Positions 608-15,770 of a stretch of 15,770 bases of DNA are shown here, in pieces. A model generated the notes under the pieces. It did not search any database, was not told the origin of the DNA, and was given only the letters and a program-made list of their open reading frames with translations. Within the stretch, counting starts at the first letter, position 1, and each line of letters starts with the position of its first letter. This DNA is from an uncultured Sulfitobacter sp. (GTDB lineage: Bacteria > Pseudomonadota > Alphaproteobacteria > Rhodobacterales > Rhodobacteraceae): positions 1 through 15,770 of the forward strand of contig CALAIJ010000291.1 in the NCBI GenBank assembly GCA_937923365.1, read 5' to 3'. The position numbers and the translations under genes were made by a program.

Positions 608-2230
608 TTAGATGCGCATCCGTGGGACATCATGCGGATCAAGCCGCAGTTCCAGCAAAAACGGGCCTTTGCGCGCCTGCATGGCCTCGATTGCGGTCTC
701 CAGTTCATCCCACGAGCGCACCTCGGCCCCTTCGCCGCCCAGCGCGCGGGCGGTCTCGGCAAACGACGGCCAGTGGAATTCGGTCAGGCTGGGGTCCATC
801 TTGCGGTCGATAAACTGGATATGTTCGGCCCCGTAGGCAGAATCGTTTGCGACGATAACGATCAGGTCCAGCCCCAGACGCACGGCGGTGTTGAACTCGT
901 TGATGCCCCCCATCATGAAGCCGCCATCACCGGTGAACATCACAACGGGGCGGTTGGGCGCGGCAACACCGGCGCCGATGGCTTCCTGCAAACCCAGCCC
1001 GATGGCGCCAAAGTTGACGGTACAGACAAAGCTCTGCGGGTCGGGCGCGGTCACGCGGCACCAGACCTCGGTCATAAAGCGCCCTCCGTCCGTGACCAGC
1101 ACGCGGTCCTTGGGCAGCGCGTCTTCCAACCGCTCAAGCGCGTGAACGTAGCTGACAAAACCCTCCTTCGCCTTTTCCGGCCCTGCGGGGTGCTTGGTGA
1201 GCGTGTCGATATCCAACTCGGCGGTGAAGCCGCTGGGGGCAATCTCGGCCTCGTCCAGCCAATAGACGATTGTCTCGGCGGTCAGGCCTGCATCGGCCAC
1301 AAGGGCAGCGTCAGGGTGCAGACCGCCCCCGATGGCGGCTGGTTCCACATCCACCTGAATGATCCGCTTGTCCTTCATCAGCTTGCCACGATCGGTGGTG
1401 AAGTCATGCAGCGCGGTGCCAAAGCAGACAATGCAATCAGACTGCGCGATCAGGTCATAGGCCGCAGGCGTGGACAGGGTGCCAAAGATGTCGATGTTAT
1501 AGGGGTGGTCGTTGAACAGCCCCTTGGCCTTGAGCGTTGTGGCCAAAGGCGCCTCCAGCCGGTCGGCCAGCTTGATCAGCTGCGCGCGCGCATGTACCGC
1601 GCCGCCGCCTGCAAGGATCAACGGGCGGCGCGCAGAGGCGATCATGCCGATGGCATTGTCCAGCGTGTCGCCTTCGGCCACACCACCGGGCGCGGTAAAG
1701 ACGTTGAGGACCTGCATGTCGTGTTCGACCTCCTGCCACATGAAATCGGCGGGCATGTTCAACACGATGGGGCGACGCTCGACCTGCGCGCGGTAAAAGG
1801 CGCGGGCGACGTCCTTGCCTGTGGTGGCGGGGCTGCGCAACTGCTCGAACCCTGCGCCGGTGACTTTGGTCAGTTCGCGCTGGTCGATGCTTTGCAGGTG
1901 GCGCGGATTGTCGACGGGCGTGTCCCCGGCAAGGATCACCAACGGCACGTGCCCGCGTGCGGCCTCCGTCAGGGCCGTGATCGCGTTGGTCAGCGCAGGC
2001 CCGTGCGTGACCGTCGCCACGCCCACCTTGCCGGACACATGTGCATAGGCCAGCGCCATCAGGACCGAGCTGCCCTCGTGAGCCGCAGGCACAAAGCGGC
2101 CCCCGCAATCGCGCACGAAACTGTCGACCATGAACAGGTTTGCGTCCCCCATCAGGCCGAACATCGTCTCGACCCCGTGCTCGTGTGTGGCGCGGGCGAT
2201 GGATTGATAGACGTGGAATGCGGTGCTCAT
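608..2230 (-). CDS. Thiamine-pyrophosphate-dependent enzyme, acetolactate synthase large-subunit-like
   Basis: Member of the TPP-dependent decarboxylase/acetolactate synthase superfamily, which acts on 2-keto acids; 540 residues, full family length, three-domain order. The N-terminal pyrimidine-binding domain (about 1-170) carries the cofactor-activating glutamate in AAHEGSS (E52). The middle domain (about 185-325) contains LILAGGG (204-210). The C-terminal pyrophosphate-binding domain has the GDG motif at 434-436 and the paired ND at 462-463, which bind the Mg-diphosphate. GGAGGG lies five bases before the ATG at 2230. No small-subunit gene is adjacent, so true branched-chain acetolactate synthesis is not indicated; a catabolic or specialised 2-keto-acid decarboxylase or ligase is as likely. 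It is divergent from an anion permease, which may import its substrate or a precursor (inference). The exact substrate cannot be read from sequence. Confidence 0.85.
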   Translation of the reverse strand: MSTAFHVYQSIARATHEHGVETMFGLMGDANLFMVDSFVRDCGGRFVPAAHEGSSVLMALAYAHVSGKVGVATVTHGPALTNAITALTEAARGHVPLVILAGDTPVDNPRHLQSIDQRELTKVTGAGFEQLRSPATTGKDVARAFYRAQVERRPIVLNMPADFMWQEVEHDMQVLNVFTAPGGVAEGDTLDNAIGMIASARRPLILAGGGAVHARAQLIKLADRLEAPLATTLKAKGLFNDHPYNIDIFGTLSTPAAYDLIAQSDCIVCFGTALHDFTTDRGKLMKDKRIIQVDVEPAAIGGGLHPDAALVADAGLTAETIVYWLDEAEIAPSGFTAELDIDTLTKHPAGPEKAKEGFVSYVHALERLEDALPKDRVLVTDGGRFMTEVWCRVTAPDPQSFVCTVNFGAIGLGLQEAIGAGVAAPNRPVVMFTGDGGFMMGGINEFNTAVRLGLDLIVIVANDSAYGAEHIQFIDRKMDPSLTEFHWPSFAETARALGGEGAEVRSWDELETAIEAMQARKGPFLLELRLDPHDVPRMRI

Positions 2231-2285
2231 GAAGGGCCCTCCGAGCTTGACTGTTTGCGTCTGAATATCAGCCCTTTGATGCGCG

Positions 2286-2340
2286 TTGCGCGCAATTACG
2301 TGCAGCGATCCGGAAAAGATGCGGCATTTGTCCCAAAATG
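2286..2340. promoter_or_regulatory. Palindromic sites in the divergent TPP enzyme/permease gap
   Basis: The 225-base gap between the divergent starts (2230 and 2456) holds TTGCGCGCAA, a perfect 10-bp palindrome at 2286-2295. It also holds an inverted repeat of CATTT (2325-2329) and AAATG (2336-2340) around a six-base centre. Either could be an operator for a shared regulator. No regulator gene is adjacent, and short palindromes arise by chance in GC-rich DNA, so this is tentative. Confidence 0.25.
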
Positions 2341-2455
2341 AGGCCTTCAGCGCACAATTTCCGCATATCCAAAGAGAACCTCACGCGCGTGCCGTCACGG
2401 TGGTTGCCTGCCCCTCGAAAAACCGCAACACTGCGCCCAAGGGAGAAAGTGGTCG

Positions 2456-4345
2456 ATGGAAGCAATTACACTGACGCTGCAAATGCAGGTTGTGCTTGGA
2501 TTGCTGGCGTTCACCATCTTCCTGTTCATCTCGGAAATTGTGCGCATCGATCTGGCAGCGATCCTTGTGATGGTGCTGCTGGGTGTGCTGAGCCAGCTTC
2601 CCGGGCTGGAGACACTGGCGGATGTGAACCACCTTTTTGACGGCTTTGCGTCGAACGCGGTGATCTCGATCATTGCGGTGATGATCATCGGCGCGGGCCT
2701 GGACAAGACGGGGCTGATGTCCAAGGTGGCCGGCCTGATCCTGAAACGTGGCGGCACAACCGAGACGCGGATCATCCCGATTGTCTCGGGCGTGGTGGGC
2801 GTGATCAGTTCGTTCATGCAAAACGTGGGGGCCGCGGCCCTGTTCCTGCCGGTGGTCAGCCGCATCTCGGCGCGCACGGATATCCCGCTTAGCCGGTTAC
2901 TGATGCCGATGGGGTTCTGCGCCATTCTGGGCGGAACCATTACCATGGTGGGATCTTCGCCGCTGATCTTGCTGAACGACCTGCTGCTGAACGCGAACGA
3001 GACGTTGCCGGAGGACCAGCAGATGGCACCCTTTGGGCTTTTCTCGGTGACGCCGATCGGCGTGTGTCTGATCCTGACGGGCATCCTGTACTTTATGATT
3101 TTCGGGCGCTGGGTGCTGCCAGCCAAGAGGGACCGAGGGTCGGATGCCTCGTCCGCGCAGACGATGCAGACCTATATCAAGCAGACCTACGGGCTGAAGG
3201 CCGACATGTTCGAAATCAGCGTGCCCGAAGGCTCGATCCTGATCGGACAGACCCTGTCGGACCTGATGGTCGCGCATCACATGTACATTCTGGGCACGTC
3301 CTATCGCGGCAAGAAGGTGATCGCGCCGATGGCCGACACCACCATCGAAGCGCCCGCACGGCTGGCCGTTCTGGGGTTGCGCCGCGTGGTGGAGCAGGAG
3401 TTCGCAGAGCCTTACGGTCTGGACATCCTGCCCGCGCTGGATGCCTTCGCCGACGATTTCGCACCGACGCAATCGGGCGTGGCCGAAGTGGTGATCCCGC
3501 CGGGGTCCTCCGTCATCGGCAAGACCCCGATTGACCTGCGCTTGCGCCAGTCCCACGGCATGGCCCTGCTGGCCATTCACCGTGGCGAGGAAACCATGAG
3601 CCATGTGGAGACCGAGGACCACGAGGCCACGCACATCGGCACCGTCCCCTTTCAGGCGGGCGACTCGCTGGTGGTGCACACCAACTGGGAACGGCTGACC
3701 CGCACCAAACGTGACCGCGACTTCGTGGTGGTAACATCCGACTTCCCTCAGGAAGAGCTACGCCCCCACAAGGTGGGCTGGGCCGTGCTGTTCTTTGCCA
3801 TCGCGCTGGCGCTGATCCTGTTTTCGGATGTGCGCCTTTCCCTGTGCCTGCTGGTGGGCGCCGTGGGCATGATCCTGACCCGCGTGCTTGACATAGACGA
3901 GGCATATCAGGCGGTCAGTTGGTCGACGATATTCCTGCTGGCAAGTCTTATCCCATTGGGCCAGGCCGTGCAGGCCACCGGCACCGCGGAGTGGATTGCC
4001 CAGCAGATCCTGACCTTGCTGGACGGCTGGCCGGTCTTTGCCTTGCAGGCTGGCATGGCGGTGCTGGCGACGGTGTTCACGCTGATCATGTCGAACGTGG
4101 GGGCGACGGTGCTGCTGGTGCCGCTGGCGGTCTCTATCGCTGTCGCATCGGGTGGTGATCCTGCGATCTTTGCCCTGACGGTGGCGATTTCAACCTCCAA
4201 CTCGTTCCTGATACCGACCCATCAGGTCAACGCGCTGATCATGGGTCCTGCGGGGTACAAGGTTATCGATTTTGTCAAAGGGGGCGGCATCATGACGATC
4301 CTCTTCCTGATCGTCTCGCTGGCCGTGATGAACGTGCTTTTCTGA
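2456..4345 (+). CDS. SLC13-type anion permease with two RCK_C (TrkA-C) domains
   Basis: Inner-membrane transporter of the divalent-anion/sodium symporter (ion transporter) superfamily; members move sulfate, di- or tricarboxylates or related anions. The 629-residue product has an N-terminal membrane half (about 10-220), two soluble RCK_C-like modules (about 250-315 and 340-425) and a C-terminal membrane half (about 440-629). The halves are internal repeats: FMQNVGAAALFLPV (120-133) matches IMSNVGATVLLVPL (544-557). The re-entrant loops near GSSPLIL (166-172) and TSNSFLIPTHQVN (580-592) probably line the substrate site. RCK_C modules usually bind a regulatory ligand. The ATG at 2456 has GGGAG at 2441-2445, ten bases upstream. 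The kappa-GST gene begins 29 bases after the stop, so cotranscription is likely. The substrate is unknown; an organic acid or sulfonate handled by the divergent TPP enzyme is only a guess. Confidence 0.87.
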   Translation: MEAITLTLQMQVVLGLLAFTIFLFISEIVRIDLAAILVMVLLGVLSQLPGLETLADVNHLFDGFASNAVISIIAVMIIGAGLDKTGLMSKVAGLILKRGGTTETRIIPIVSGVVGVISSFMQNVGAAALFLPVVSRISARTDIPLSRLLMPMGFCAILGGTITMVGSSPLILLNDLLLNANETLPEDQQMAPFGLFSVTPIGVCLILTGILYFMIFGRWVLPAKRDRGSDASSAQTMQTYIKQTYGLKADMFEISVPEGSILIGQTLSDLMVAHHMYILGTSYRGKKVIAPMADTTIEAPARLAVLGLRRVVEQEFAEPYGLDILPALDAFADDFAPTQSGVAEVVIPPGSSVIGKTPIDLRLRQSHGMALLAIHRGEETMSHVETEDHEATHIGTVPFQAGDSLVVHTNWERLTRTKRDRDFVVVTSDFPQEELRPHKVGWAVLFFAIALALILFSDVRLSLCLLVGAVGMILTRVLDIDEAYQAVSWSTIFLLASLIPLGQAVQATGTAEWIAQQILTLLDGWPVFALQAGMAVLATVFTLIMSNVGATVLLVPLAVSIAVASGGDPAIFALTVAISTSNSFLIPTHQVNALIMGPAGYKVIDFVKGGGIMTILFLIVSLAVMNVLF

Positions 4346-4374
4346 CGATCATCCCCGATTTGAAAGTCTGCGCA

Positions 4375-5016
4375 ATGACAGAAGAACTGGACGTTTACTA
4401 TTCGTTTCGCAGCCCCTATTCCTACCTTGCGTCACCTGATCTTGTCGCACTGGAGCGGGACTATGACTTGCGTGTGAACCTGCGGGTGATCCTCCCGATT
4501 GCGGTGCGCGCGCCGGAATACTTCAAACCAGCCAATGAACAATGGGCACGCTACATCCAACTGGACTGGCCACGCCGCGCGGCGTTTCTGGGGCTGCCGC
4601 ACAAGTGGCCGGACCCCGATCCAATCGTTCAGGACCTTGAGACGCTGAAGGTCGCCGCAGACCAACCCTACATTTTCTGGATCAGCAGTCTCGCAGTGGA
4701 GGCGCAACGACGCGGATGCGGAGCGGCCTTTGCCTTTCATGTATCGCGTGCAATCTTTGGCGGGACGCCGAACTGGCACCAGACGCAGGTGCTGGGCCCC
4801 GCCGTGGCCGCAGCCGGGCTGGACCTTGCGACACTGGAAGCCGCGATCAAGTCAGGGGATCATCTTGCGGAAATTGACCGCAACCAAACCAAACTCGAAG
4901 CGTCAGGCCACTGGGGCGTCCCAACATTCGTATTTCAAGAAGAGCCGTTTTTTGGTCAGGACCGCGTGGACCTTTTGCGATGGCGACTTGACGGCGCGGG
5001 TGTCCCAAAGACATGA
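4375..5016 (+). CDS. Kappa-class GST-like protein, 2-hydroxychromene-2-carboxylate isomerase family
   Basis: Thioredoxin-fold protein of the DsbA/kappa-GST group, 213 residues, matching the usual 200-220. Characterised relatives use glutathione to isomerise 2-hydroxychromene-2-carboxylate in naphthalene breakdown; many bacterial members have no known substrate. The N-terminus has YYSFRSPYSYLA (8-19), in which S13 occupies the glutathione-activating serine position of the family, with no CxxC. The cis-proline loop GVPTFVF lies near the C-terminus. An in-frame TTG at 4360 could add five residues. The ATG at 4375 was preferred because it gives the family-like N-terminus and has GAAAG eight bases upstream, although that ribosome site is weak. 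Its TGA overlaps the next gene's ATG by four bases (5013-5016), so the two are translationally coupled. Family assignment is firm; the reaction is not known. Confidence 0.85.
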   Translation: MTEELDVYYSFRSPYSYLASPDLVALERDYDLRVNLRVILPIAVRAPEYFKPANEQWARYIQLDWPRRAAFLGLPHKWPDPDPIVQDLETLKVAADQPYIFWISSLAVEAQRRGCGAAFAFHVSRAIFGGTPNWHQTQVLGPAVAAAGLDLATLEAAIKSGDHLAEIDRNQTKLEASGHWGVPTFVFQEEPFFGQDRVDLLRWRLDGAGVPKT

Positions 5017-6182
5017 CGCGGCCCTATCTGCACTGGTCGGCACATTGCTCCCTTTATAGCGGCAAAACGCGGTCCTATCTGATCAAAAAGGGCCTTCCCT
5101 TTCTGGAGGCGACACCGGGGCACGCGCGTTTCATGCACGATATCCGCCCCGCAATAGGTTTCTTTTCTGTGCCCGTGCTAGAGACCCCTGACGGTGCGTT
5201 TATCCAAGACACCACCCAGATCATTCGCACACTTGAGACGTGGCATCCGACACCTGCCATGCAGCCCGAAGACCCCGTCATGCGACTGCTGTGCTGGCTC
5301 ATTCACGCCTATGGGACCGAAGGGTTGTTCAAGGCCGCGCAACACTATCGCTGGTCTTTTCCCGCGGAGAATTGGGACTTCGTCGTGGGTGAATTTGCCC
5401 GCGGGCTCGCCTCACCTGAGGACACGGATCCCAAGGCGGGATTGGCCCGCAGTGAGGCATTTGCGAAGGCCAAAGTGGCCGCATTGTCCAAAATTGGCGT
5501 GACGTCTGATACAATTCCCTCGATCGAGCACGGCACCTTGCGAGTTTTTGATTTGCTGGAGCGACACTTCCAAGCCCATCCCTACATCCTCGGTGGGCGC
5601 CCAAGCATCGCTGATTGCGGTTTGATGACGGCCCTTCACGCGCACTTGGGCCGTGATCCCTATCCGGCAGGGTTGATGAAACGAGTAGCGCCCGCGCTGT
5701 ACCGCTGGACCGAGACAATGAATAGACCGGGAATCACCGATGCGGAATTCAGCCACATGCCGCCAGAATACGTGCGCGCGCGAACGCTACCCGATACGCT
5801 GATCTCATTCCTGCGGTTTCTTTGGGCAGATTTCTCACCTGAATTACACGCCACACTGGAGGCCTTTGAAAACTGGAGAGCGCGCACACCAGATGCCTGC
5901 GCGGGCAGCCCTGTATCGCTGGACGGCACCCCCTTGTTGCGCCAGTCTTTGGGTCAGATTAGCTATGTCCAAAACGGGCACACCATCACCCGTGAAGGCT
6001 GGCCGGACATTCTGCTGATGCACCAATACGTGCTGGATGTTCACCGCAACATGCAAGCGGCTGACCGCGCCACACTGGACGCTATCCTGACACAGATCGA
6101 AGCGCGCGACATGCTGCGCCTGATACCGTCGGAACGGCTGGCCCGATCCGCCTCCTCGACCGTGCTGGCCTCGCCTGTTTAG
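5013..6182 (+). CDS. Glutathione S-transferase-like protein with long C-terminal extension
   Basis: A 389-residue protein, almost twice the length of a typical GST (about 200-230). Residues 1-80 look like a GST N-terminal thioredoxin fold. They contain SVPVLETPDG (52-61) followed by IQDTTQIIRTLE (64-75), the VPxL and D-S/T elements that hold glutathione. Residues about 90-235 resemble the helical C-terminal domain, with YILGGRPSIADCGL (191-204). Residues about 240-389 form an extension that I do not recognise. The start overlaps the stop of the kappa-GST gene by four bases, strongly suggesting a paired function. At its 3' end, four bases overlap the convergent small membrane-protein gene. Glutathione-dependent detoxification or a catabolic isomerisation is plausible, but no substrate can be named. 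Confidence 0.75.
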   Translation: MTRPYLHWSAHCSLYSGKTRSYLIKKGLPFLEATPGHARFMHDIRPAIGFFSVPVLETPDGAFIQDTTQIIRTLETWHPTPAMQPEDPVMRLLCWLIHAYGTEGLFKAAQHYRWSFPAENWDFVVGEFARGLASPEDTDPKAGLARSEAFAKAKVAALSKIGVTSDTIPSIEHGTLRVFDLLERHFQAHPYILGGRPSIADCGLMTALHAHLGRDPYPAGLMKRVAPALYRWTETMNRPGITDAEFSHMPPEYVRARTLPDTLISFLRFLWADFSPELHATLEAFENWRARTPDACAGSPVSLDGTPLLRQSLGQISYVQNGHTITREGWPDILLMHQYVLDVHRNMQAADRATLDAILTQIEARDMLRLIPSERLARSASSTVLASPV

Positions 6183-7946: not shown

Positions 7947-7954
7947 TCCTGTTG

Positions 7955-7983
7955 GACCTAGCCACCCAAGCCCTACAAGTCAA
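7955..7983 (-). promoter_or_regulatory. Candidate pyk promoter
   Basis: On the minus strand TTGACT (7983-7978) and TAGGTC (7960-7955) are separated by 17 bases. The -35 is good and the -10 is weak. The start of transcription would fall near 7948, immediately before the operator-like palindrome at 7931-7946. Confidence 0.35.
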
Positions 7984-7996
7984 AGGTTTCACAAAA

Positions 7997-8734
7997 ATGA
8001 CGTACCTGCCATACGATATTGACGGCACGGACAGGCGCGGGCGGTGGCTGATCACCTGCGACCACGCGGCCAACACCGTTCCGGACGGGGTGGCGGGCGG
8101 CAACCTTGGCTTGCCAGCGGCAGATATGGCGCGTCACATCGCCTATGACATCGGCGCGGCGGAGGTGACGCGCCTGCTGGCCGCGCATCTGGGCAGCCCT
8201 GCGATCCTGTCGAATTTCTCGCGTCTGGTGATTGATCCCAACCGTGGCGAAGATGATCCCACCCTGCTGATGAAGCTCTATGACGGCACGATCATTCCGG
8301 CCAATGCCCGCGCGGATAACGCCGAGCGCACCCGCCGCCTTGATCTGTGCTACCGGCCTTATCACGCGGCCTATGCCGATCTGGCGGCACGGGACGGAAC
8401 CGTGATTGTCTCGGTCCACAGCTTCACGCCGCAATTGCGCGGGCGCCCTCCCCGCCCTTGGCAGGTGGGTGTTCTCTACAATCAGGACACGCGGCTGGCC
8501 TTGCCCCTGCTGGCCGCATTGCGGGCCGAACCCGACCTGACTGTCGGGGATAACGAACCCTACACCGGCTATCTGAAAGGCGACGCGATGGACCGTCATG
8601 CGCTGCAAACGGGGCGCCCGCATGTGCTGATCGAACTGCGCAACGATCTGATCGCGGATGCCGCAAGCCAGCACCATTGGGCCGCGCGCCTTGCACCGGT
8701 CCTTGAAACGGTGCTGGCCCAAACCCAACTTTGA
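7997..8734 (+). CDS. N-formylglutamate amidohydrolase family protein
   Basis: Zinc-dependent hydrolase of the N-formylglutamate deformylase family, 245 residues. The HutG-type enzyme releases L-glutamate from N-formylglutamate at the end of histidine breakdown. The family signature CDHAANTVP (21-29), SRLVIDPNRG (75-84), VSVHSFTP (138-145) and a late IELRND (212-217) supply the His, Asp, Arg and Glu residues expected around the metal and substrate. The ATG at 7997 is preferred over an in-frame TTG at 7952: the upstream part is unlike the family, and AAAGG (7982-7986) is correctly placed. The gene is divergent from pyk and 17 bases upstream of a DUF1244 gene, with which it likely forms an operon. 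No other hut genes are nearby, so a substrate other than N-formylglutamate, such as another N-acyl amino acid, is possible. Confidence 0.85.
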   Translation: MTYLPYDIDGTDRRGRWLITCDHAANTVPDGVAGGNLGLPAADMARHIAYDIGAAEVTRLLAAHLGSPAILSNFSRLVIDPNRGEDDPTLLMKLYDGTIIPANARADNAERTRRLDLCYRPYHAAYADLAARDGTVIVSVHSFTPQLRGRPPRPWQVGVLYNQDTRLALPLLAALRAEPDLTVGDNEPYTGYLKGDAMDRHALQTGRPHVLIELRNDLIADAASQHHWAARLAPVLETVLAQTQL

Positions 8735-8751
8735 TCCATAAGGAGACCGCC

Positions 8752-9069
8752 ATGACATCCCCCACCCAAACAGAGATCGAATTGCAGGCCGCGGCCTTCC
8801 GTCGTTTGCAAAAACACCTGATGCAAGACCGTCCCGATGTGCAAAACATCGACATGATGAACCTGACGGGGTTCTGCCGGAACTGCCTGTCACGCTGGTA
8901 CGCCGAGGCCGCCGCCGAACGCGGCATCGAGATCGGCAAGGAAGAAGCGCGCGAATTGTTCTACGGCATGACGATGGCGGAATGGAAAGCGAACCATCAG
9001 ACCGATGCCAAACCCGAGACCGAGGAAGCGTTCAAGGACGCCTTCGCGCAGAACGTGGGCAAGGAATAG
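8752..9069 (+). CDS. DUF1244 family protein
   Basis: A 105-residue cytoplasmic protein with no predicted membrane segment or signal peptide. It matches the small alphaproteobacterial DUF1244 family, of unknown function. The conserved core is NLTGFCRNCLSRWYAEA (37-53), with a C42-x-x-C45 pair, followed by GKEEARELFYGMTMAEWK (62-79). The paired cysteines could bind a metal or form a redox pair, but this has not been shown to my knowledge. The ATG at 8752 has a strong AGGAG at 8741-8745, six bases upstream; a possible TTG at 8731 lacks such a site. It lies 17 bases after the amidohydrolase gene and is probably cotranscribed with it. Confidence 0.88.
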   Translation: MTSPTQTEIELQAAAFRRLQKHLMQDRPDVQNIDMMNLTGFCRNCLSRWYAEAAAERGIEIGKEEARELFYGMTMAEWKANHQTDAKPETEEAFKDAFAQNVGKE

Positions 9070-9102: not shown

Positions 9103-9148
9103 GTACCCCACAACTGTTTCTATTTGCGAAACAATGCTCTGGCACGAT

Positions 9149-9178
9149 TTGACATCGCACTGTGGGGCCACGTAGGCT
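9149..9178 (+). promoter_or_regulatory. Candidate sigma-70 promoter for the RTX-like gene
   Basis: A perfect TTGACA (9149-9154) is followed after 18 bases by TAGGCT (9173-9178). Transcription would begin near 9185. This favours translation starting at 9214 or 9229 and rules out the in-frame TTG at 9124. Confidence 0.45.
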
Positions 9179-9228
9179 TTTGGTTAACGCTACGATCCCA
9201 AGCTACTTTTTCCATGAATGGAACAGCT

Positions 9229-10380
9229 ATGCTCGCCCTGTTTGCCTTGCCTGCCCTTTTGGGGCTCGCTTTCCTGATTAACGTTTTTGATGACGATGAC
9301 GGCGACGTAAACACCGCGCGCGAGGTTCTGACCAACCGCAATGAAGACCCAGAGGATGACAGGGTTGTCGACGACGAACCGCGGCCCCGTGATCCGGTTG
9401 TAAGCGACCCTTTGCCTTTGCCGGTTCTTGCTGTTCCCGATGACGTTGCCCGCTTTGAAGGCACCAACGGCGCAGACATCATCGAGGCCCGTGCCGCGGG
9501 CGGAGAGATCATCGCCGCAGGGGGCGCTGACACCGTCACAGGTGGTGAAGGCGATGACCGAATTGCAGGCCGATACGGCAGCGACGTAATCGATGCCCGG
9601 GGCGGCAATGACGTTGTCTGGGGTGATCAAGGAAATGACCGCATCTTGCTTGGGGCTGGGGCGGACAGCGGCTATGGCGCAATCGGGGACGACACTATTT
9701 TTGGCCAAGGCGGCAACGATTACATCACGGGCGACGCGGGCAATGATGTGCTGGATGGCGGCGATGGCAATGACCGCGTGCGCGGCGGTGACGGCAACGA
9801 CCTGATCCGCATGGGTGCGGGCGATGACAGTGATGTCGGTTACGGCTATGCGGGCCAAGGCAATGACACAGTCTTTGCCGGTGCGGGCAATGACAGCGTG
9901 CAGGAAGGCCACGGCTTTGACGAGGTCTACGGCGAGGCCGGCAACGATTTTATCCGCGTCGACAACGAAGACAGCTTTGGCAGCGATCCCCAGCGCGCAC
10001 CTGACACGGTAGATGGCGGGGCGGGCGATGACACCCTTCAGGCCAACGACGAAGACGTACTGACAGGCGGCACAGGCGCGGACACTTTCCGCATCTCGAC
10101 TGATGACAACACCAATTTTGGCGCGGCGATGATCACCGACTTCGACACTGACGAAGACGTGCTGGAGGTCAGCGGCTTTAGCGCCAATCCCGATATCTAC
10201 GCCTATACACTGGCCTATGACGCGGATCGCGATGCGGTGATCCTGACCCAGACAGAGCGCGATCTGAATCCGGAAGAGCTAGCGGACCTGCCCACGGTCG
10301 AACTGGCGCAACTGTCAGGCCTGACTGCCAGCGATATCCCGAATGTGGAACTGATCATCCCTGAAAGCACACGCGGCTGA
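9229..10380 (+). CDS. RTX-like calcium-binding repeat protein with N-terminal hydrophobic anchor
   Basis: A very acidic protein of 383 residues. Residues 1-20 (MLALFALPALLGLAFLINVF) form one hydrophobic segment, probably a membrane anchor or uncleaved signal. An Asp/Glu/Pro-rich linker (21-75) follows, then an RTX region (about 76-285). That region has roughly a dozen nonapeptides of the GGxGxDxUx kind, for example GGEGDDRIA (105-113), GGNDYITGDA (161-170) and GGDGNDRVR (177-185), which form Ca2+-binding beta-rolls. TGGTGADTFRIS (279-290) followed by AMITDFDTDEDVLEV (300-314) is the typical C-terminal end of serralysin-type RTX proteins. I see no catalytic domain and no adjacent type I secretion genes. 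An ATG at 9214 would add five residues. The inner ATG was chosen because TGGAA (9219-9223) lies just before it; the choice is uncertain. The role is unknown; surface adhesion or secretion are options. Confidence 0.82.
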   Translation: MLALFALPALLGLAFLINVFDDDDGDVNTAREVLTNRNEDPEDDRVVDDEPRPRDPVVSDPLPLPVLAVPDDVARFEGTNGADIIEARAAGGEIIAAGGADTVTGGEGDDRIAGRYGSDVIDARGGNDVVWGDQGNDRILLGAGADSGYGAIGDDTIFGQGGNDYITGDAGNDVLDGGDGNDRVRGGDGNDLIRMGAGDDSDVGYGYAGQGNDTVFAGAGNDSVQEGHGFDEVYGEAGNDFIRVDNEDSFGSDPQRAPDTVDGGAGDDTLQANDEDVLTGGTGADTFRISTDDNTNFGAAMITDFDTDEDVLEVSGFSANPDIYAYTLAYDADRDAVILTQTERDLNPEELADLPTVELAQLSGLTASDIPNVELIIPESTRG

Positions 10381-11682: not shown

Positions 11683-12128
11683 AGGATCAGCCACTCAGCG
11701 GTCATCGCGGGCCGCTCCTCCCCGTCGATCTCGACCACCGCATCAAGGGTGCACATCAGCTTGTCACCGCCGCGTACTTGGGTGTCGCGCAGGGTGAAAC
11801 GCCCGCGTATCCGCTTGCCCGACCGCACAGGTGTGATGAAACGCACCTTGTCAAAGCCGTAGTTCACGCTGGCGCTCATCCCTTCCATCACGGGCAGCGC
11901 GCTATAGGCCATGCCCGACATCATAGAGACGGTCAGCATCCCATGCGCCACTGTGCCCCCGAATATTGTCCCCGCCGCTCGGACGGGGTCGATATGGATG
12001 AACTGATGGTCCTCTGTCGTATCGGCAAAGGCGTTGATGCGCGCCTGATCCATGATGAACCAGTCCGAGCAGCCAAGCTCCTGGCCGATGGCCGCCTGCA
12101 TGCCCTCGCGCGTGATCGTGTTTGCCAT
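11670..12128 (-). CDS. MaoC-like (R)-specific enoyl-CoA hydratase family protein
   Basis: Hot-dog-fold protein of 152 residues, the size of single-domain PhaJ/MaoC-type hydratases, which add water to trans-2-enoyl-CoA to give (R)-3-hydroxyacyl-CoA. The hydratase motif is clear: FADTTEDHQFIHIDP (34-48) with catalytic D40 and H45 at the family's spacing of five, followed by FGGTVAHGML (56-65). The ATG at 12128 has GAGG four bases upstream. The gene is divergent from the YdcZ-family gene (52-base gap) and its 3' end overlaps the MFS gene by 13 bases. Roles in polyhydroxyalkanoate supply, fatty-acid breakdown or another acyl-CoA route are all possible; the neighbours do not decide between them. 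Confidence 0.88.
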   Translation of the reverse strand: MANTITREGMQAAIGQELGCSDWFIMDQARINAFADTTEDHQFIHIDPVRAAGTIFGGTVAHGMLTVSMMSGMAYSALPVMEGMSASVNYGFDKVRFITPVRSGKRIRGRFTLRDTQVRGGDKLMCTLDAVVEIDGEERPAMTAEWLILYVF

Positions 12129-12180
12129 TTCGCCTCGCTTGCCGTTTGATGCGACTATTGCTCACTCAAAAGGACGGCTC

Positions 12181-12624
12181 ATGCAATCCCCCCTCATCGC
12201 TCTGCTGATTGTGGTAACGGCTGGCATCGCTGTGGCGGTTCAATCGCCGCTGAACGCGGCCCTTGGGCGCAGCATCGGCAGTGGCGTCGCTGCGGCTGCG
12301 GTATCCTTTGGCGTGGGGTTCTTCGTGCTGGTCGGCGTCTCGATGGTGCTGGGCCAGTTTGGCGCCTTTGGCCGCGTGGCGGCAGCCCCACCCGTGCTGC
12401 TGCTAGGGGGCGCTTTGGGCGCGTTCTTTGTCTGGTCGATGCTGTGGGCCGTGCCTGTGGTGGGCGCATTGACGGCTATCTCTGCACTTGTGCTGGGGCA
12501 GATGACGGCAGCCCTTGTCATTGATGCGACAGGGCTGTTCGGATTGGCTGTGCAGGCCGTCACCCTGCCCCGTCTGGCGGGGGCAGGTCTGGTCGCGTTG
12601 GGCGTGGTCCTGTCACGGCTCTGA
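12181..12624 (+). CDS. YdcZ-family (DMT superfamily) small membrane transporter
   Basis: A 147-residue integral membrane protein with about five hydrophobic helices, matching the YdcZ/DUF606 family of half-size drug/metabolite-type transporters. Family landmarks are QSPLNAALGR (21-30) after helix 1, LLGGALGAFFVW (74-85), and GQMTAALVIDATGLFG (106-121), close to the family's GQ...DxxGLFG motif. The ATG at 12181 has AAAAGGA six bases before it. Such proteins probably work as dimers. The substrate is not known, and no adjacent second copy is present. It ends 20 bases from the convergent D-amino-acid transaminase stop. Confidence 0.83.
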   Translation: MQSPLIALLIVVTAGIAVAVQSPLNAALGRSIGSGVAAAAVSFGVGFFVLVGVSMVLGQFGAFGRVAAAPPVLLLGGALGAFFVWSMLWAVPVVGALTAISALVLGQMTAALVIDATGLFGLAVQAVTLPRLAGAGLVALGVVLSRL

Positions 12625-12644: not shown

Positions 12645-13505
12645 TCAGACTGCCATTTTGCGCATTTCGTCCAGATAGATTTCACGCAAGCGCGGCGCGA
12701 CGCGCCCTGGTGTGCCATCGCCCAAGGCAACACCGTCGATTTCGACGACAGGCATGACAAAAGCAGAAGCTGAGGTGGTGAACGCCTCATCCGCCTCCTT
12801 GGCCTCGTCGATGGTAAAGTTGCGTTCCTCGACTTCCATCTGGGCTTCCTTGGCAAAGCGCAAAACAGCAGAACGGGTGATGCCGTGCAGGATATCATTG
12901 GACAGTGCACGCGTGATGATCCGGTTGCCTTTGACGATATAGGCGTTGTTGGATGTGCCTTCCGTGACAAAGCCATCCTCGATCATCCACGCATCATCGC
13001 AGCCGGCCTTCTTGGCCATCATCTTGCCCATGGACGGATAAAGCAATTGCACCGTCTTGATGTCGCGGCGGCCCCAGCGGATGTCTTCGATGGAAATGAT
13101 CTTGGCCCCTTTCTTGGCGGCGGGACTGTCGGCGAGGCCCGGCTTGTTCTGGGTGAACAGAACAATCGTCGGCTCTGTGTCTTCTGCCGGATAGGCAAAA
13201 TCACGGTCGCCGTCAGAGCCGCGGGTGATTTGCAGATAGACGAGACCCTCGTTGATCTCGTTCACCCGCACCAGCTCGCGGTGGACCTCCAGCAGATCGG
13301 CTTTGGAGATCGGGTTCTTCATTTCCAACTCGTTGAGCGACCGGCTCAGCCGCACTGCGTGTCCGTCAAAGTCGATCAGCTTGCCATCCAGCACGGAGGT
13401 CACTTCATAGACCCCGTCCGCCATCAGAAACCCGCGATCAAAGATCGAGATTTGTGCTTCGTTCTCGGGCAGGTATGCGCCGTTTACATAGACGGTCCGT
13501 GTCAT
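12645..13505 (-). CDS. dat: D-amino-acid transaminase (class IV, PLP)
   Basis: Fold-type IV PLP aminotransferase of 286 residues, the normal length. It moves the amino group between D-amino acids and 2-keto acids, typically D-Ala plus 2-oxoglutarate giving pyruvate plus D-Glu. Visible residues are FDRGFLMADGVYEV (22-35), the PLP lysine K150 in RRDIKTVQLL, E182 in TEGTSNNAY (pairs with the PLP nitrogen), and the phosphate-binding loop GITRSAVL (208-215). In the Bacillus enzyme an Arg-x-His pair (R98, H100) holds the substrate carboxylate; here the aligned residues are R101-D-F103, so the His is lost. AAAGGATCG precedes the ATG at 13505. It is the last gene of the run dgcN-dgcA-exonuclease-dat, 20 bases after the exonuclease. 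D-amino-acid use fits the context better than branched-chain metabolism. Confidence 0.87.
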   Translation of the reverse strand: MTRTVYVNGAYLPENEAQISIFDRGFLMADGVYEVTSVLDGKLIDFDGHAVRLSRSLNELEMKNPISKADLLEVHRELVRVNEINEGLVYLQITRGSDGDRDFAYPAEDTEPTIVLFTQNKPGLADSPAAKKGAKIISIEDIRWGRRDIKTVQLLYPSMGKMMAKKAGCDDAWMIEDGFVTEGTSNNAYIVKGNRIITRALSNDILHGITRSAVLRFAKEAQMEVEERNFTIDEAKEADEAFTTSASAFVMPVVEIDGVALGDGTPGRVAPRLREIYLDEMRKMAV

Positions 13506-13525
13506 GGTATCGATCCTTTCAAAGG

Positions 13526-14146
13526 TCAGTTCGGGGCCAGCCCGGTGATGTGTTCAGGGCGCAGGCGGCCTGTTTGCAGCAGATGGCTTAAAGCTGTGGC
13601 AACCCCCGCTGCGTCCGCGCGGGCGTCATGCGCGCGGCCTGTGGATTTCAAACCGAAATAGGCGCAGATGGTATTGCTGCGCAAGCCGTTCACGGTTTCG
13701 ACGTCTTCACCAGCGGCAACCAGCAGATGAGCCGCATTGCGAAACTGCGGCGCGGGGATCGGACTTGTCAGCCCTTGCACAAAGAGCGACGGCGCAAAGC
13801 ACAGCAATTCGTCTTTGCCCCAGCTCAGCAACAGGTTGCCTTGGGCAAAATCGCCCAGCGCACCCAGCGCGTCGATCAAGGGCACGCCTTGGGTGTCGAT
13901 GGTCGCCTGTGTGATCCCGCACAGACGGGTCAACATGGGATCAATCGCGGTCACGTTGCCGTCGCGATCCTGCGGCGTGACGAACCATCCAACGGGCTCT
14001 GACACGTCGTAAGGCGCGCTCAGGTCAAGCCGTACCGCGCCGATCTGGACGCACAAAGGATCAGGATCCTGCGGCCCACACCAGAACCGTGAAGGAGAGG
14101 CCTCGCCCGTCAGGAATTCGCAATCGTAGACGATGACAAAAGACAC
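13526..14146 (-). CDS. DEDDh-family 3'-5' exonuclease-like protein
   Basis: RNase T/DnaQ-like fold of 206 residues. Exo I is VIVYDCEF with D8 and E10. Exo II is LLSWGKDELL with D112, reminiscent of the SWG-x-x-D form of KapD/ERI1-type exonucleases rather than DnaQ. Exo III is H173-DARA-D178, the H-x4-D of the DEDDh class. All five catalytic residues are therefore present, and a metal-dependent nuclease acting on RNA or DNA 3' ends is predicted. The GTG at 14146 is chosen, one base after the dgcA stop and after a GGGGG run. A longer reading to 14251 would run deep into dgcA and has no family-like sequence. It is coupled to dgcA and lies 20 bases before dat. Why a nuclease sits in a D-amino-acid operon is not clear. 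Confidence 0.78.
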   Translation of the reverse strand: MSFVIVYDCEFLTGEASPSRFWCGPQDPDPLCVQIGAVRLDLSAPYDVSEPVGWFVTPQDRDGNVTAIDPMLTRLCGITQATIDTQGVPLIDALGALGDFAQGNLLLSWGKDELLCFAPSLFVQGLTSPIPAPQFRNAAHLLVAAGEDVETVNGLRSNTICAYFGLKSTGRAHDARADAAGVATALSHLLQTGRLRPEHITGLAPN

Positions 14147-14147
14147 G

Positions 14148-15113
14148 CTACCCCCACAAGCCAGCGACAGGCGGATGCACCCCAGCATCGTCAAAGACCA
14201 GCGGCGTGGGACGATCCTCACCCAAAAGCAGCGGCCCATCAAGGTCGACAACCTTGACCCCCTGGGCCACCAGCGTGGCCGGGGCCATCGCCAGGGAAGA
14301 CCCCACCATGCAACCGACCATCACGTCGTAGCCTTCTGCCCGCGCGGCATCGCGCAGCTTGAGCGCTTCGGTCAGACCTCCGGTCTTGTCGAGCTTGATG
14401 TTGACCACATCGTACTTGCCTTTGAGCCGCTCCAAAGTGCTGCAATCATGCGCGCTTTCGTCGGCGCAAACGGGCACCGGGCGCTCCATCCCGATGAGTG
14501 CCGCATCATCTGCGGCGGGCAACGGCTGTTCGACCAATGCCACGCCAAGGCGCACAAGATGCGGTGCAAGGTCGGCATAGACGTCTGCCGTCCAGCCCTC
14601 GTTGGCATCAACGATGATTGTGCTTTGGGGTGCGCCTGCGCGCACGGCCTCCAGACGGGGCATGTCGTCGGGCGTGCCCAGCTTGATCTTCAAGAGCGGG
14701 CGATGCGCATTCTTGGCCGCCTGCGCCTGCATCTCTGCGGGTTCGGCAAGCGACAGGGTATAGGCGGTGATTTCGGGGCCGGGCTTGGGCAAACCGGCCA
14801 TCTCCCAAACACGTTTGCCTGCGGTCTTGGCCTCAAGATCCCACAAGGCACAATCGACCGCATTGCGCGCGGCCCCTGCGGGCAACAGATCATAAAGGCC
14901 CTCGCGGGTCAGTGCCCCGCTCAGCGCTTCGATCTGCGCGGTGACACTCTCCATTGTCTCGCCGTAGCGCGCATAGGGTACACATTCGCCCCACCCTGTT
15001 ACGCCGCCATCCGTGATCCGAACGGTAAGAACGCGGGCCTCGGTGCGCGAGCCACGCGAAATGGTGAACACCTGCGCCAGTTGAAACACATCGGCCGTTA
15101 CTTCTATGCGCAT
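14148..15113 (-). CDS. dgcA: N-acetyl-D-glutamate racemase DgcA / dipeptide epimerase-like enolase-superfamily enzyme
   Basis: Muconate-lactonizing-type member of the enolase superfamily, 321 residues. The acid-base pair is K-x-K (K142, K144 in LKIKLG) and K240 (NIKLDKTGG). The Mg2+ ligands are D169 (VDANEG), E195 (VEQPL) and D218 (ADESA). The dipeptide-epimerase hallmark D290-L-D292 follows GCMVGSSLAMAPA (267-279). By sequence alone it would be called L-Ala-D/L-Glu epimerase. Next to a DUF1611 gene it more likely acts as DgcA, converting N-acetyl-D-Glu to N-acetyl-L-Glu in the marine D-glutamate pathway. The ATG at 15113 has AAGGGGG just upstream and gives MRIEVTADVF; a longer reading to 15167 adds non-family sequence and crosses the intercistronic hairpin. 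The exonuclease gene starts one base after its TAG. Confidence 0.85.
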   Translation of the reverse strand: MRIEVTADVFQLAQVFTISRGSRTEARVLTVRITDGGVTGWGECVPYARYGETMESVTAQIEALSGALTREGLYDLLPAGAARNAVDCALWDLEAKTAGKRVWEMAGLPKPGPEITAYTLSLAEPAEMQAQAAKNAHRPLLKIKLGTPDDMPRLEAVRAGAPQSTIIVDANEGWTADVYADLAPHLVRLGVALVEQPLPAADDAALIGMERPVPVCADESAHDCSTLERLKGKYDVVNIKLDKTGGLTEALKLRDAARAEGYDVMVGCMVGSSLAMAPATLVAQGVKVVDLDGPLLLGEDRPTPLVFDDAGVHPPVAGLWG

Positions 15114-15144
15114 CGGTCCCCCTTCACCCTTCCAGATAAACTCA

Positions 15145-15172
15145 ATCCTGCACCCGCAACCGGGCACAGGAT
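15145..15172 (-). promoter_or_regulatory. 12-bp RNA hairpin between dgcN and dgcA
   Basis: In the minus-strand transcript ATCCTGTGCCCG and CGGGTGCAGGAT pair over 12 positions around the tetraloop GUUG, with two adjacent G-U wobbles. On the plus strand the same positions would be A/C mismatches, so the structure is specific to the dgc transcript. It begins six bases after the dgcN stop and ends before the dgcA ribosome site. The T-run that follows is weak (GAGTTTAT). It may act as a partial terminator, or as a processing or stability element that sets the DgcN:DgcA ratio. Confidence 0.55.
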
Positions 15173-15178
15173 CAGATG

Positions 15179-15770
15179 TTAAAGTGCTGCCAGCGCATCC
15201 GCCAGTTTCTCGGACCCAAAGCGGTACGGATCGGTGGCAGGCAGCCCCATCTCACCCTCGACCTTGGTAAGATAGGCGCGGGCGTCGTCCTCGGACATAT
15301 GTTGGGTATTTACGGAAATGCCAACGACCTGACAGGCGGGGTTGGCCACTTTGGCCAGCGCCAGCGCCATGTCGCGCACGGCTTCCATGGTGGGCGGCGT
15401 GTACTCGGGCAGACCGCGCATGTGGGTGCGCGTCGGCTCGTGGCAGATGATCAGCGCATCGGGCTGGCCGCCGTGCACCAGCGCCATGGTGACGCCGGAA
15501 TAGCTGACGTGGAACAGGCTGCCCTGCCCCTCGATGATGTCCCAGTGGTCGTCATCGTTATCAGGCGTCAGATACTCGACCGCACCGGCCATGAAATCGG
15601 CGATGACCGCATCAAGCGGCACACCAGAGCCGGTGATCAGAATGCCGGTCTGGCCGGTGGCGCGGAACGTGCTTTTCATGCCCTTGGCGCGCATCGCCTC
15701 ATCCAGCGCCATGGCGGTGTACATCTTGCCGACAGAGCAATCGGTGCCGACGGCCAGTACCCGCTTGCCA
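15179..15770 (-). CDS. dgcN: D-glutamate N-acetyltransferase DgcN (DUF1611), N-terminus beyond window
   Basis: The last 196 residues of a DUF1611 protein (usual length about 330-350); the frame is open to the right edge. It begins in a P-loop-like motif, VGTDCSVGKMYTA, then has GQTGILITGSGVPLDAV, the family signature EGQGSLFHVSYSGV, and CHEPTRTHMRG. In the marine D-glutamate pathway DgcN acetylates D-Glu with acetyl-CoA to N-acetyl-D-Glu, which DgcA then racemises. The immediate downstream position of a DgcA-like gene is the main reason for choosing DgcN over the older label of NAD-dependent epimerase. It appears to be upstream of dgcA, the exonuclease and dat in one operon. The promoter and the regulator DgcR, if present, lie beyond the window. 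Confidence 0.83.
   Translation of the reverse strand, partial: GKRVLAVGTDCSVGKMYTAMALDEAMRAKGMKSTFRATGQTGILITGSGVPLDAVIADFMAGAVEYLTPDNDDDHWDIIEGQGSLFHVSYSGVTMALVHGGQPDALIICHEPTRTHMRGLPEYTPPTMEAVRDMALALAKVANPACQVVGISVNTQHMSEDDARAYLTKVEGEMGLPATDPYRFGSEKLADALAAL

Follow-up and report, generated by a model that had tools for sequence, protein, structure and literature searches.

The three genes dgcN, dgcA and dat form a conserved core in the family Rhodobacteraceae. We encountered it on a stretch of 15,770 nucleotides from an uncultured Sulfitobacter sp. (contig CALAIJ010000291.1 of assembly GCA_937923365.1; in the following, the window), in which an exonuclease-like gene lies between dgcA and dat. 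On balance we lean towards reading this locus as the Rhodobacteraceae version of the DgcN-DgcA D-glutamate (D-Glu) route, with an attached D-amino-acid transaminase gene (dat) and a funnel of D-amino acids through D-Glu. The funnel itself is plausible. Dat would transfer the amino group of D-alanine (D-Ala), perhaps also of other D-amino acids, to 2-oxoglutarate, yielding D-Glu and a keto acid. DgcN would acetylate D-Glu, DgcA would invert N-acetyl-D-Glu to N-acetyl-L-Glu, and a deacylase encoded elsewhere would release L-Glu. We infer these enzyme activities, the direction of the Dat reaction and the coupled flux.

Conservation of dgcN-dgcA-dat in the Rhodobacteraceae

Profile searches for DgcN, DgcA, Dat and the exonuclease were carried out in a family sample of 120 genomes from 119 genera, the window's own genome included. 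The counts comprise matches over cut-off plus partial or contig-cut genes (DgcA in G114, DgcN in G000 and G108), and the linkage of dgcN, dgcA and dat was taken from these family-model searches and not from gene-calling maps. DgcA was found in 105, Dat in 116 and DgcN in 94 of the 120 genomes. We counted dat as linked when it lay behind dgcA in the same orientation and at a distance of up to 3.5 kb; one genome in which the two matches overlap by one base (G068) was added by hand. Of the 105 genomes containing both genes, dat is located behind dgcA in 101 (100 by script plus the manual addition). In three of the four remaining genomes the two genes are on separate contigs (G008, G054, G090), in the fourth (G018) on opposite strands, 2.4 kb apart. 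The distance between dgcA and dat is at most 150 bases in 77 of the 100 script-linked genomes and exceeds 150 bases in 23, the window among them. Every genome with dgcN also has dgcA (94/94) and dgcN is located ahead of dgcA in 90 of these; in three cases the genes are on separate contigs (G005, G102, G114) and in one (G062) they are 62 kb apart. Altogether the complete order dgcN-dgcA-dat is present in 87 of the 120 genomes (86 by script plus G068).

A second set comprised the loci of the best 80 named DgcA relatives, which were chosen for closeness and are hence not independent. All 80 contain dgcN and 79 have dat downstream, the one remaining locus ending at a contig edge (L148). In 48 of the 79 the gap between dgcA and dat is 20 bases or less. 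Such short gaps on the same strand give the pair the form of a translated unit. The closest named relatives of the window's DgcA, whose names are our basis for assigning the window to the Rhodobacteraceae, are Sulfitobacter strains first (87-88%), and its Dat is 93% to L105 and L107.

The window is the entire contig C291 of a genome that is 64.75% complete, and the region upstream of dgcN lies outside the contig. An earlier note on this DNA had described an operon of four genes on one strand with gaps of 65 (dgcN-dgcA), 1 (dgcA-exonuclease) and 20 bases (exonuclease-dat). A check of the open reading frames bore out gene content, strand (minus for all four) and gaps, so that the four genes have the layout of one operon (same strand, short gaps). 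The identities given there for dgcN, dgcA and dat are likewise supported by the family models. DgcA exceeds its curated cut-off (501.3 vs 400 bits, NF042940) and its partner gene dgcN adjoins it, 65 bases upstream. Dat is over the cut-off of the “D-amino-acid transaminase” model NF005209 (381.3 vs 320). DgcN scores 344.8 bits against a cut-off of 480 (NF041892) as a fragment that covers no more than model positions 134-326 out of 326: the gene runs open off the contig end, with its stop at 15179 and its 5’ part missing.

Table 1. Features of the dgcN-dgcA-dat locus in the window
Feature	Position	Strand	Matches and properties
dgcN (DUF1611 family), C-terminal 196 residues	15179..15770	-	NF041892, PF07755 2.2e-78, 7xrj 2.3e-104
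Hairpin in the dgcN-dgcA gap	15143..15174	-	minimum free energy -28.3 kcal/mol, z -3.38, weak T-rich tail
dgcA, enolase superfamily, N-acetyl-D-Glu racemase / dipeptide-epimerase-like	14148..15113, ATG	-	NF042940, 4gfi 2.2e-105, 1jpd 1.1e-80
DEDDh-type 3’-5’ exonuclease-like gene	13526..14146, GTG	-	PF00929 below gathering score, DEDDh residues
dat, D-amino-acid transaminase	12645..13505, ATG	-	NF005209, D-alanine aminotransferase 9pxs 1.7e-52, 1daa 3.2e-48
YdcZ-type membrane protein gene	12052..12624	+	PF04657; convergent to dat

The earlier note had counted the exonuclease gene in the operon. When comparing gene order, the dgcN-dgcA-dat part of this claim stood, whereas the four-gene order did not: the exonuclease gene occupies the slot between dgcA and dat in only 3 of the 120 family genomes (window, G003, G009) and, among the 80 named loci, in 2 (L119 of Lutimaribacter pacificus, L172 of an uncultured Roseobacter). 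Altogether, the profile search matched the exonuclease in 10 family genomes, in 7 of them elsewhere than between dgcA and dat, and found no match in the other 110. At the locus it is absent in 78 of the 80 named relatives, including the nearest Sulfitobacter L105-L107, other contigs being outside this search. The protein itself reaches 21.9 bits with PF00929 (RNase_T), under the gathering score of 24, and D8, E10, D112, H173 and D178 are invariant across 10 aligned sequences, the window included; we take these residues to be the Asp, Glu, Asp, His, Asp active motif of a DEDDh exonuclease. One could think of a functional fourth member, for example for scavenging lysates alongside D-amino acids, since the gene lies on the same strand with gaps of 1 and 20 bases and occupies the same slot in five loci in total. 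We give this idea practically no credence: the distribution of the gene, which is unmatched even in the same-genus genome of our sample, speaks against it as a pathway member, and it is probably a passenger, an unrelated insertion. The slot between dgcA and dat tolerates insertions. In other genomes it is filled by a gene of the NUDIX, DUF6544, hydrolase-like or peptidoglycan-binding type, or by an opposite-strand YdcZ gene (G005, G009, G064, G076). In the window the YdcZ-type gene marks the boundary of the four-gene unit and is not a member of it.

The dgcN-dgcA gap and the position of dat

A funnel from dat into DgcN-DgcA is opposed by several findings, which concern the fold of the dgcN-dgcA gap, the position and the pocket of dat, the enzymes that handle D-Glu and the persistence of dgcA-dat without dgcN. 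In the window, the sequence between dgcN and dgcA can form a stem of 13 pairs (Table 1). Among 102 dgcN-dgcA gaps of 15-250 bases, the window included, z is below -3 in 22 (median -1.45), and 47 are terminator-like compared to 19-27 in five shuffled sets. A scan for internal terminators and promoters gave 3 terminator-like sites with 2.2 expected and no promoter-like site with 1.1 expected, considering the sigma-70 type only. The folds of the gaps suggest partial termination or mRNA stabilization between dgcN and the downstream genes in some genomes. The hairpin argues against a single uniform transcript and may partly uncouple dgcN from dgcA, the exonuclease gene and dat. In several gaps of the Roseobacter group (L139, L156 and L123 among them) we noticed a recurring terminator-like arrangement, a GC-rich hairpin with TATTTT and AAGATGAA behind it, and in the gaps of some relatives a GC-rich repeat (CCTCCGGCGG / TATTT..AAGATGA); neither was found in the window.

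For comparison with genomes outside the family we analyzed 190 genomes drawn from the class, setting aside 3 of the own family; rows over the cut-off were used plus one just below it (G301). DgcA is present in 62 and DgcN in 46 of these genomes. The two genes are linked in 45 of the 46, the sole exception being split over two contigs. All 45 genomes with DgcN over the cut-off contain DgcA. Of the two just below it G301 also has DgcA, and G210 (C57:1603-2577, 467 bits) has no DgcA over cut-off, so the rule of dgcN occurring together with dgcA does not hold there. In contrast to the family, dat adjoins dgcA in only one (G184) of 53 outside genomes that contain the two genes. As 38 of these 53 have dgcA and dat on separate contigs, part of which are fragments, the stricter figure is 1 of 15 on a shared contig. 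By these counts dgcN-dgcA is the more widespread pair, and the attached dat is a mark of the Rhodobacteraceae lineage. Two Dat-family genes over cut-off contain one in-frame stop each (G156 C11:184116-184958, TAG; G235 C27:6627-7478, TGA).

We noticed that dat is part of a stable neighborhood. Many genomes have in common the block accA, mcl (HpcH/HpaI family), [dgcN dgcA] dat, DUF1244, N-formylglutamate amidohydrolase (FGase), pykA, rplT, with rpmI and pheST presumably following beyond rplT, as judged by position. Counts for pykA, mcl and accA stem from gene-calling maps of hand-picked loci, many of them picked for unusual arrangements, and these maps miss genes: dat is uncalled in 10 of 61 (L095, L097 and L100 do not hold dat), and wrong-strand frames cover dgcA in several. 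In the maps, 37 of 51 loci have pykA at most 8 kb away from dat. Among genomes without dgcN and dgcA, dat is still within 8 kb of pykA in 6 of 11, 3 of the 11 being not callable, and in 4 of those 6 mcl and accA are near as well. Because the whole region is conserved, the closeness of dgcA and dat is by itself weak evidence for a common function. The pair dgcN-dgcA may simply have landed before a resident dat in a very stable region, the neighbors not cooperating at all, and a history of this kind fits with how often other sequence has come between dgcA and dat (in 23 of the 100 linked genomes). The mostly tight arrangement on the same strand, both in the family sample and in the named loci, speaks for more than position, as does the related chemistry of the products; we therefore consider a purely positional association unlikely, albeit with a real chance of being correct.

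The unit of dgcN, dgcA, exonuclease and dat holds no deacylase. The FGase gene of the window (7952-8734) was considered as the missing N-acetyl-L-Glu deacylase and set aside in this role, as the gene is also found by dat in loci without dgcN and dgcA (L046, L048). That FGase acts as a deacylase of N-acyl-glutamate is possible. It lies together with a DUF1244 gene (window 7952-9069) divergent from the pyruvate kinase gene, and FGase and DUF1244 genes are near dat in 27 and 30 of the 51 mapped loci, respectively.

Further along, positions 608-6182 of the window contain genes for a thiamine pyrophosphate (TPP)-dependent enzyme and a CitMHS/TrkA-C transporter as well as two more genes between the end of rplT and pykA. 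They have no counterpart in 60 mapped loci and are perhaps a lineage-specific insert in the conserved block. Among the matches listed for the TPP enzyme it is under the cut-off in all of 25 NCBIfam models. Positions 9124-10380 on the plus strand encode a protein of 418 residues with numerous GGxGxD-type repeats of the kind found in secreted proteins that bind calcium, judged by eye.

The Dat pocket and the handling of D-Glu

Across 137 aligned Dat sequences from the window and the fetched loci, three residues never vary: the catalytic Lys and the Tyr and Arg of the trap. All 137 have Phe at the position of the canonical trap His, and 131 have Ser at K35. The same picture emerges in comparison to the Bacillus D-amino-acid aminotransferase 1daa, which is homologous over 266 residues: K150, Y33 and R101 are common to both, while the trap His and K35 are replaced as described. 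Canonical D-amino-acid transaminase motifs are given as FxxxxYxVxK, YxQ and RxH in Table 1 of PMC10671532; the Dat of the window has MxxxxYxVxS, YxQ and RxF, which departs from the canonical set. Judging from these residues the pocket would be near-canonical. In addition, the window's Dat misses the stricter equivalog model TIGR01121 (240.8 vs 277.45). RxF also occurs in Dats of genomes that lack dgcN and dgcA, so the substitution does not depend on the presence of the dgc genes. With RxF for RxH and S for K35, formation of D-Glu by Dat is not assured.

Glutamate racemase could be an alternative handler of D-Glu. The model TIGR00067 gives some match in 112 of the 120 family genomes and none in 8. 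Only 33 of the 120 reach its cut-off, which makes the model a poor test of absence here. Seven of the 8 racemase-less genomes have dat over cut-off, and 6 of these 7 have an alanine racemase. Such a distribution would fit a role of the locus in D-Glu homeostasis, in which Dat would provide the cell wall with D-Glu, in place of or alongside MurI, and any surplus would be removed by DgcN-DgcA. We considered genomes without MurI as a natural proof of Dat-made D-Glu, but this was weakened by a wider racemase search in 7 of the 8. Two of them (G001, G015) show weak matches to PF01177 with the same placement as MurI in the window's genome, probably a divergent MurI, and three (G022, G083, G101) contain other relatives of Asp/Glu racemases. 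No racemase was found in G090 and G118; both genomes are flawed as examples, as G118 is 84% complete and dat is apart from dgcN-dgcA in G090. Furthermore, these searches covered glutamate racemase and Asp/Glu racemase relatives, besides which there is the MurL route (PMC5808125), and with Dat in 116 of 120 genomes its co-occurrence says little. All in all, homeostasis appears to us a very improbable explanation of the locus.

DgcA without DgcN and the meaning of the locus

The persistence of dgcA-dat without dgcN is the most testable oddity of the locus. Ten family genomes keep the pair without dgcN, 9 of them at least 94% complete. One of the ten is the genome of the same genus as the window (G055); its dgcA and dat matches are 8 bases apart, and the profile searches gave neither a dgcN nor an exonuclease match. 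When also counting unlinked genes, DgcA occurs without DgcN in 11 of the 105 family genomes. Outside the family, 16 of the 62 genomes with DgcA have no DgcN over its cut-off (G128, G133, G137, G158, G161, G170, G189, G197, G218, G242, G256, G262, G266, G285, G287, G293). The family name of NF042940 is thus wider than the pathway, and an NF042940 “DgcA” call alone is no proof of the pathway.

On a DgcA tree with 64 rows, 9 changes are needed to account for the 11 rows without dgcN, at least 3 of them on well-supported branches. The number of dgcN losses is uncertain, as 63 of 500 sets of shuffled labels do equally well and support is weak for 36 of the 61 inner branches. We then compared the sequences of the two groups. 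The residues K142, K144, D169, E195, D218 and K240, which we take to be the Lys pair and the metal ligands of the enolase-superfamily motif, are kept in 9 of 9 rows without dgcN and in at least 52 of 53 rows with dgcN; two diverged rows without dgcN (G008, G093) were excluded from this count. Seven columns differ between DgcA with and without dgcN, none of them at the named catalytic residues. From 182 conserved columns the rows with dgcN deviate at a median of 2 positions and the rows without dgcN at 3-20 in 9 rows and at 40 and 49 in G093 and G008, a difference partly explained by the columns having been picked on the dgcN-bearing rows. The deviations could reflect relaxed or shifted constraint.

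At least 7 of the 120 family genomes contain a second, divergent pair of enolase and DUF1611 genes with about 188-230 bits each (G024 C18, G037 C105, G020 C22, G064 C146, G090 C1, G109 C116, G050 C8). The DUF1611 gene of G050 reaches 421 bits and its pair is 2 kb apart; the other pairs are adjacent. In all of them the dgcA-like gene comes before the dgcN-like one, opposite to the order in the window. A paralogous route for the racemization of acyl-amino acids is possible.

One explanation for DgcA without DgcN is that dgcA-dat is an older pair for cell-wall recycling, in which DgcA would epimerize L-Ala-D-Glu from muropeptides and Dat would dispose of D-Ala, DgcN being an accessory through which DgcA also reaches free D-Glu. 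The number of dgcN-less genomes inside and outside the family and the unchanged catalytic residues in 9 of the 11 family rows (the other two being those excluded) are consistent with it. So is the second-best PDB match of the window's DgcA, the L-Ala-D/L-Glu epimerase 1jpd of the enolase superfamily, which is homologous over most of its length. Furthermore, muropeptide-binding YepA, which acts in Agrobacterium, is widespread in Rhodobacterales according to PMC9790009. Against this explanation, the window's DgcA scores too low for the curated model of L-Ala-D/L-Glu epimerase (307.7 vs a cut-off of 343) and is over the cut-off of DgcA. The stronger deviation of dgcN-less rows, with columns chosen on dgcN-bearing rows, also argues against an ancestral recycling function, and another N-acyltransferase could replace DgcN. 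As dgcA is linked to dgcN and not to dat outside the family, dgcA-dat is not the older arrangement by position. We regard this explanation as quite unlikely.

Alternatively, dgcA-dat may have become a stable working pair after dgcN-dgcA joined a resident dat near pykA in the ancestor of the family. DgcA would then have a job independent of DgcN, either epimerization of muropeptide L-Ala-D-Glu or racemization after another acyltransferase, and dgcN would have been lost several times. This sequence of events we consider rather unlikely.

Returning to the funnel as the favored reading, both of its halves have precedents. DgcN-DgcA was reportedly discovered in Pseudoalteromonas sp. CF6-2. The known route (Yu et al. 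2023, ISME J 17:537) uses the same two enzyme families, encoded adjacently and in the same order as in the window; Rhodobacteraceae add dat, seen next to dgcA in a single outside genome, and the window adds the exonuclease. The reference list of PMC12363236 contains, by title, a D-Ala aminotransferase route in Pseudoalteromonas sp. CF6-2 (Yu et al. 2022, AEM 88:e02219-21), that is, the use of a D-Ala aminotransferase by a marine bacterium as proposed here for Dat. PMC12363236 itself names dgcN as the key gene of an irreversible racemization pathway for acidic D-amino acids. In a Shewanella, DgcN-DgcA is very likely the main D-Glu route by transcript levels, besides a racemase (PMC10845958). 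For a Rhodobacteraceae isolate PMC11747546 describes growth on D-Glu, D-Ala and D-Phe, and its authors annotated genes for a D-amino-acid transaminase, a D-Glu N-acetyltransferase and an N-acetyl-D-Glu racemase. Among the titles and abstract starts listed we found no description of dgcN-dgcA-dat as one cluster, which may well be in print. With the DgcN-DgcA and the D-Ala aminotransferase halves each already published, the locus is a lineage-specific extension of a pathway.

D-Ala and D-Glu from cell walls are described as an important share of marine dissolved organic matter in PMC10845958 and PMC6965332. If dgcA and dat indeed form a pair of their own, this pair would join cell-wall recycling to the catabolism of free D-amino acids in a main group of marine bacteria. 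If dat feeds DgcN-DgcA across the family, a single locus would account for the conversion of several D-amino acids to L-Glu, and the adjacency of dat and dgcA would be a usable genomic marker.

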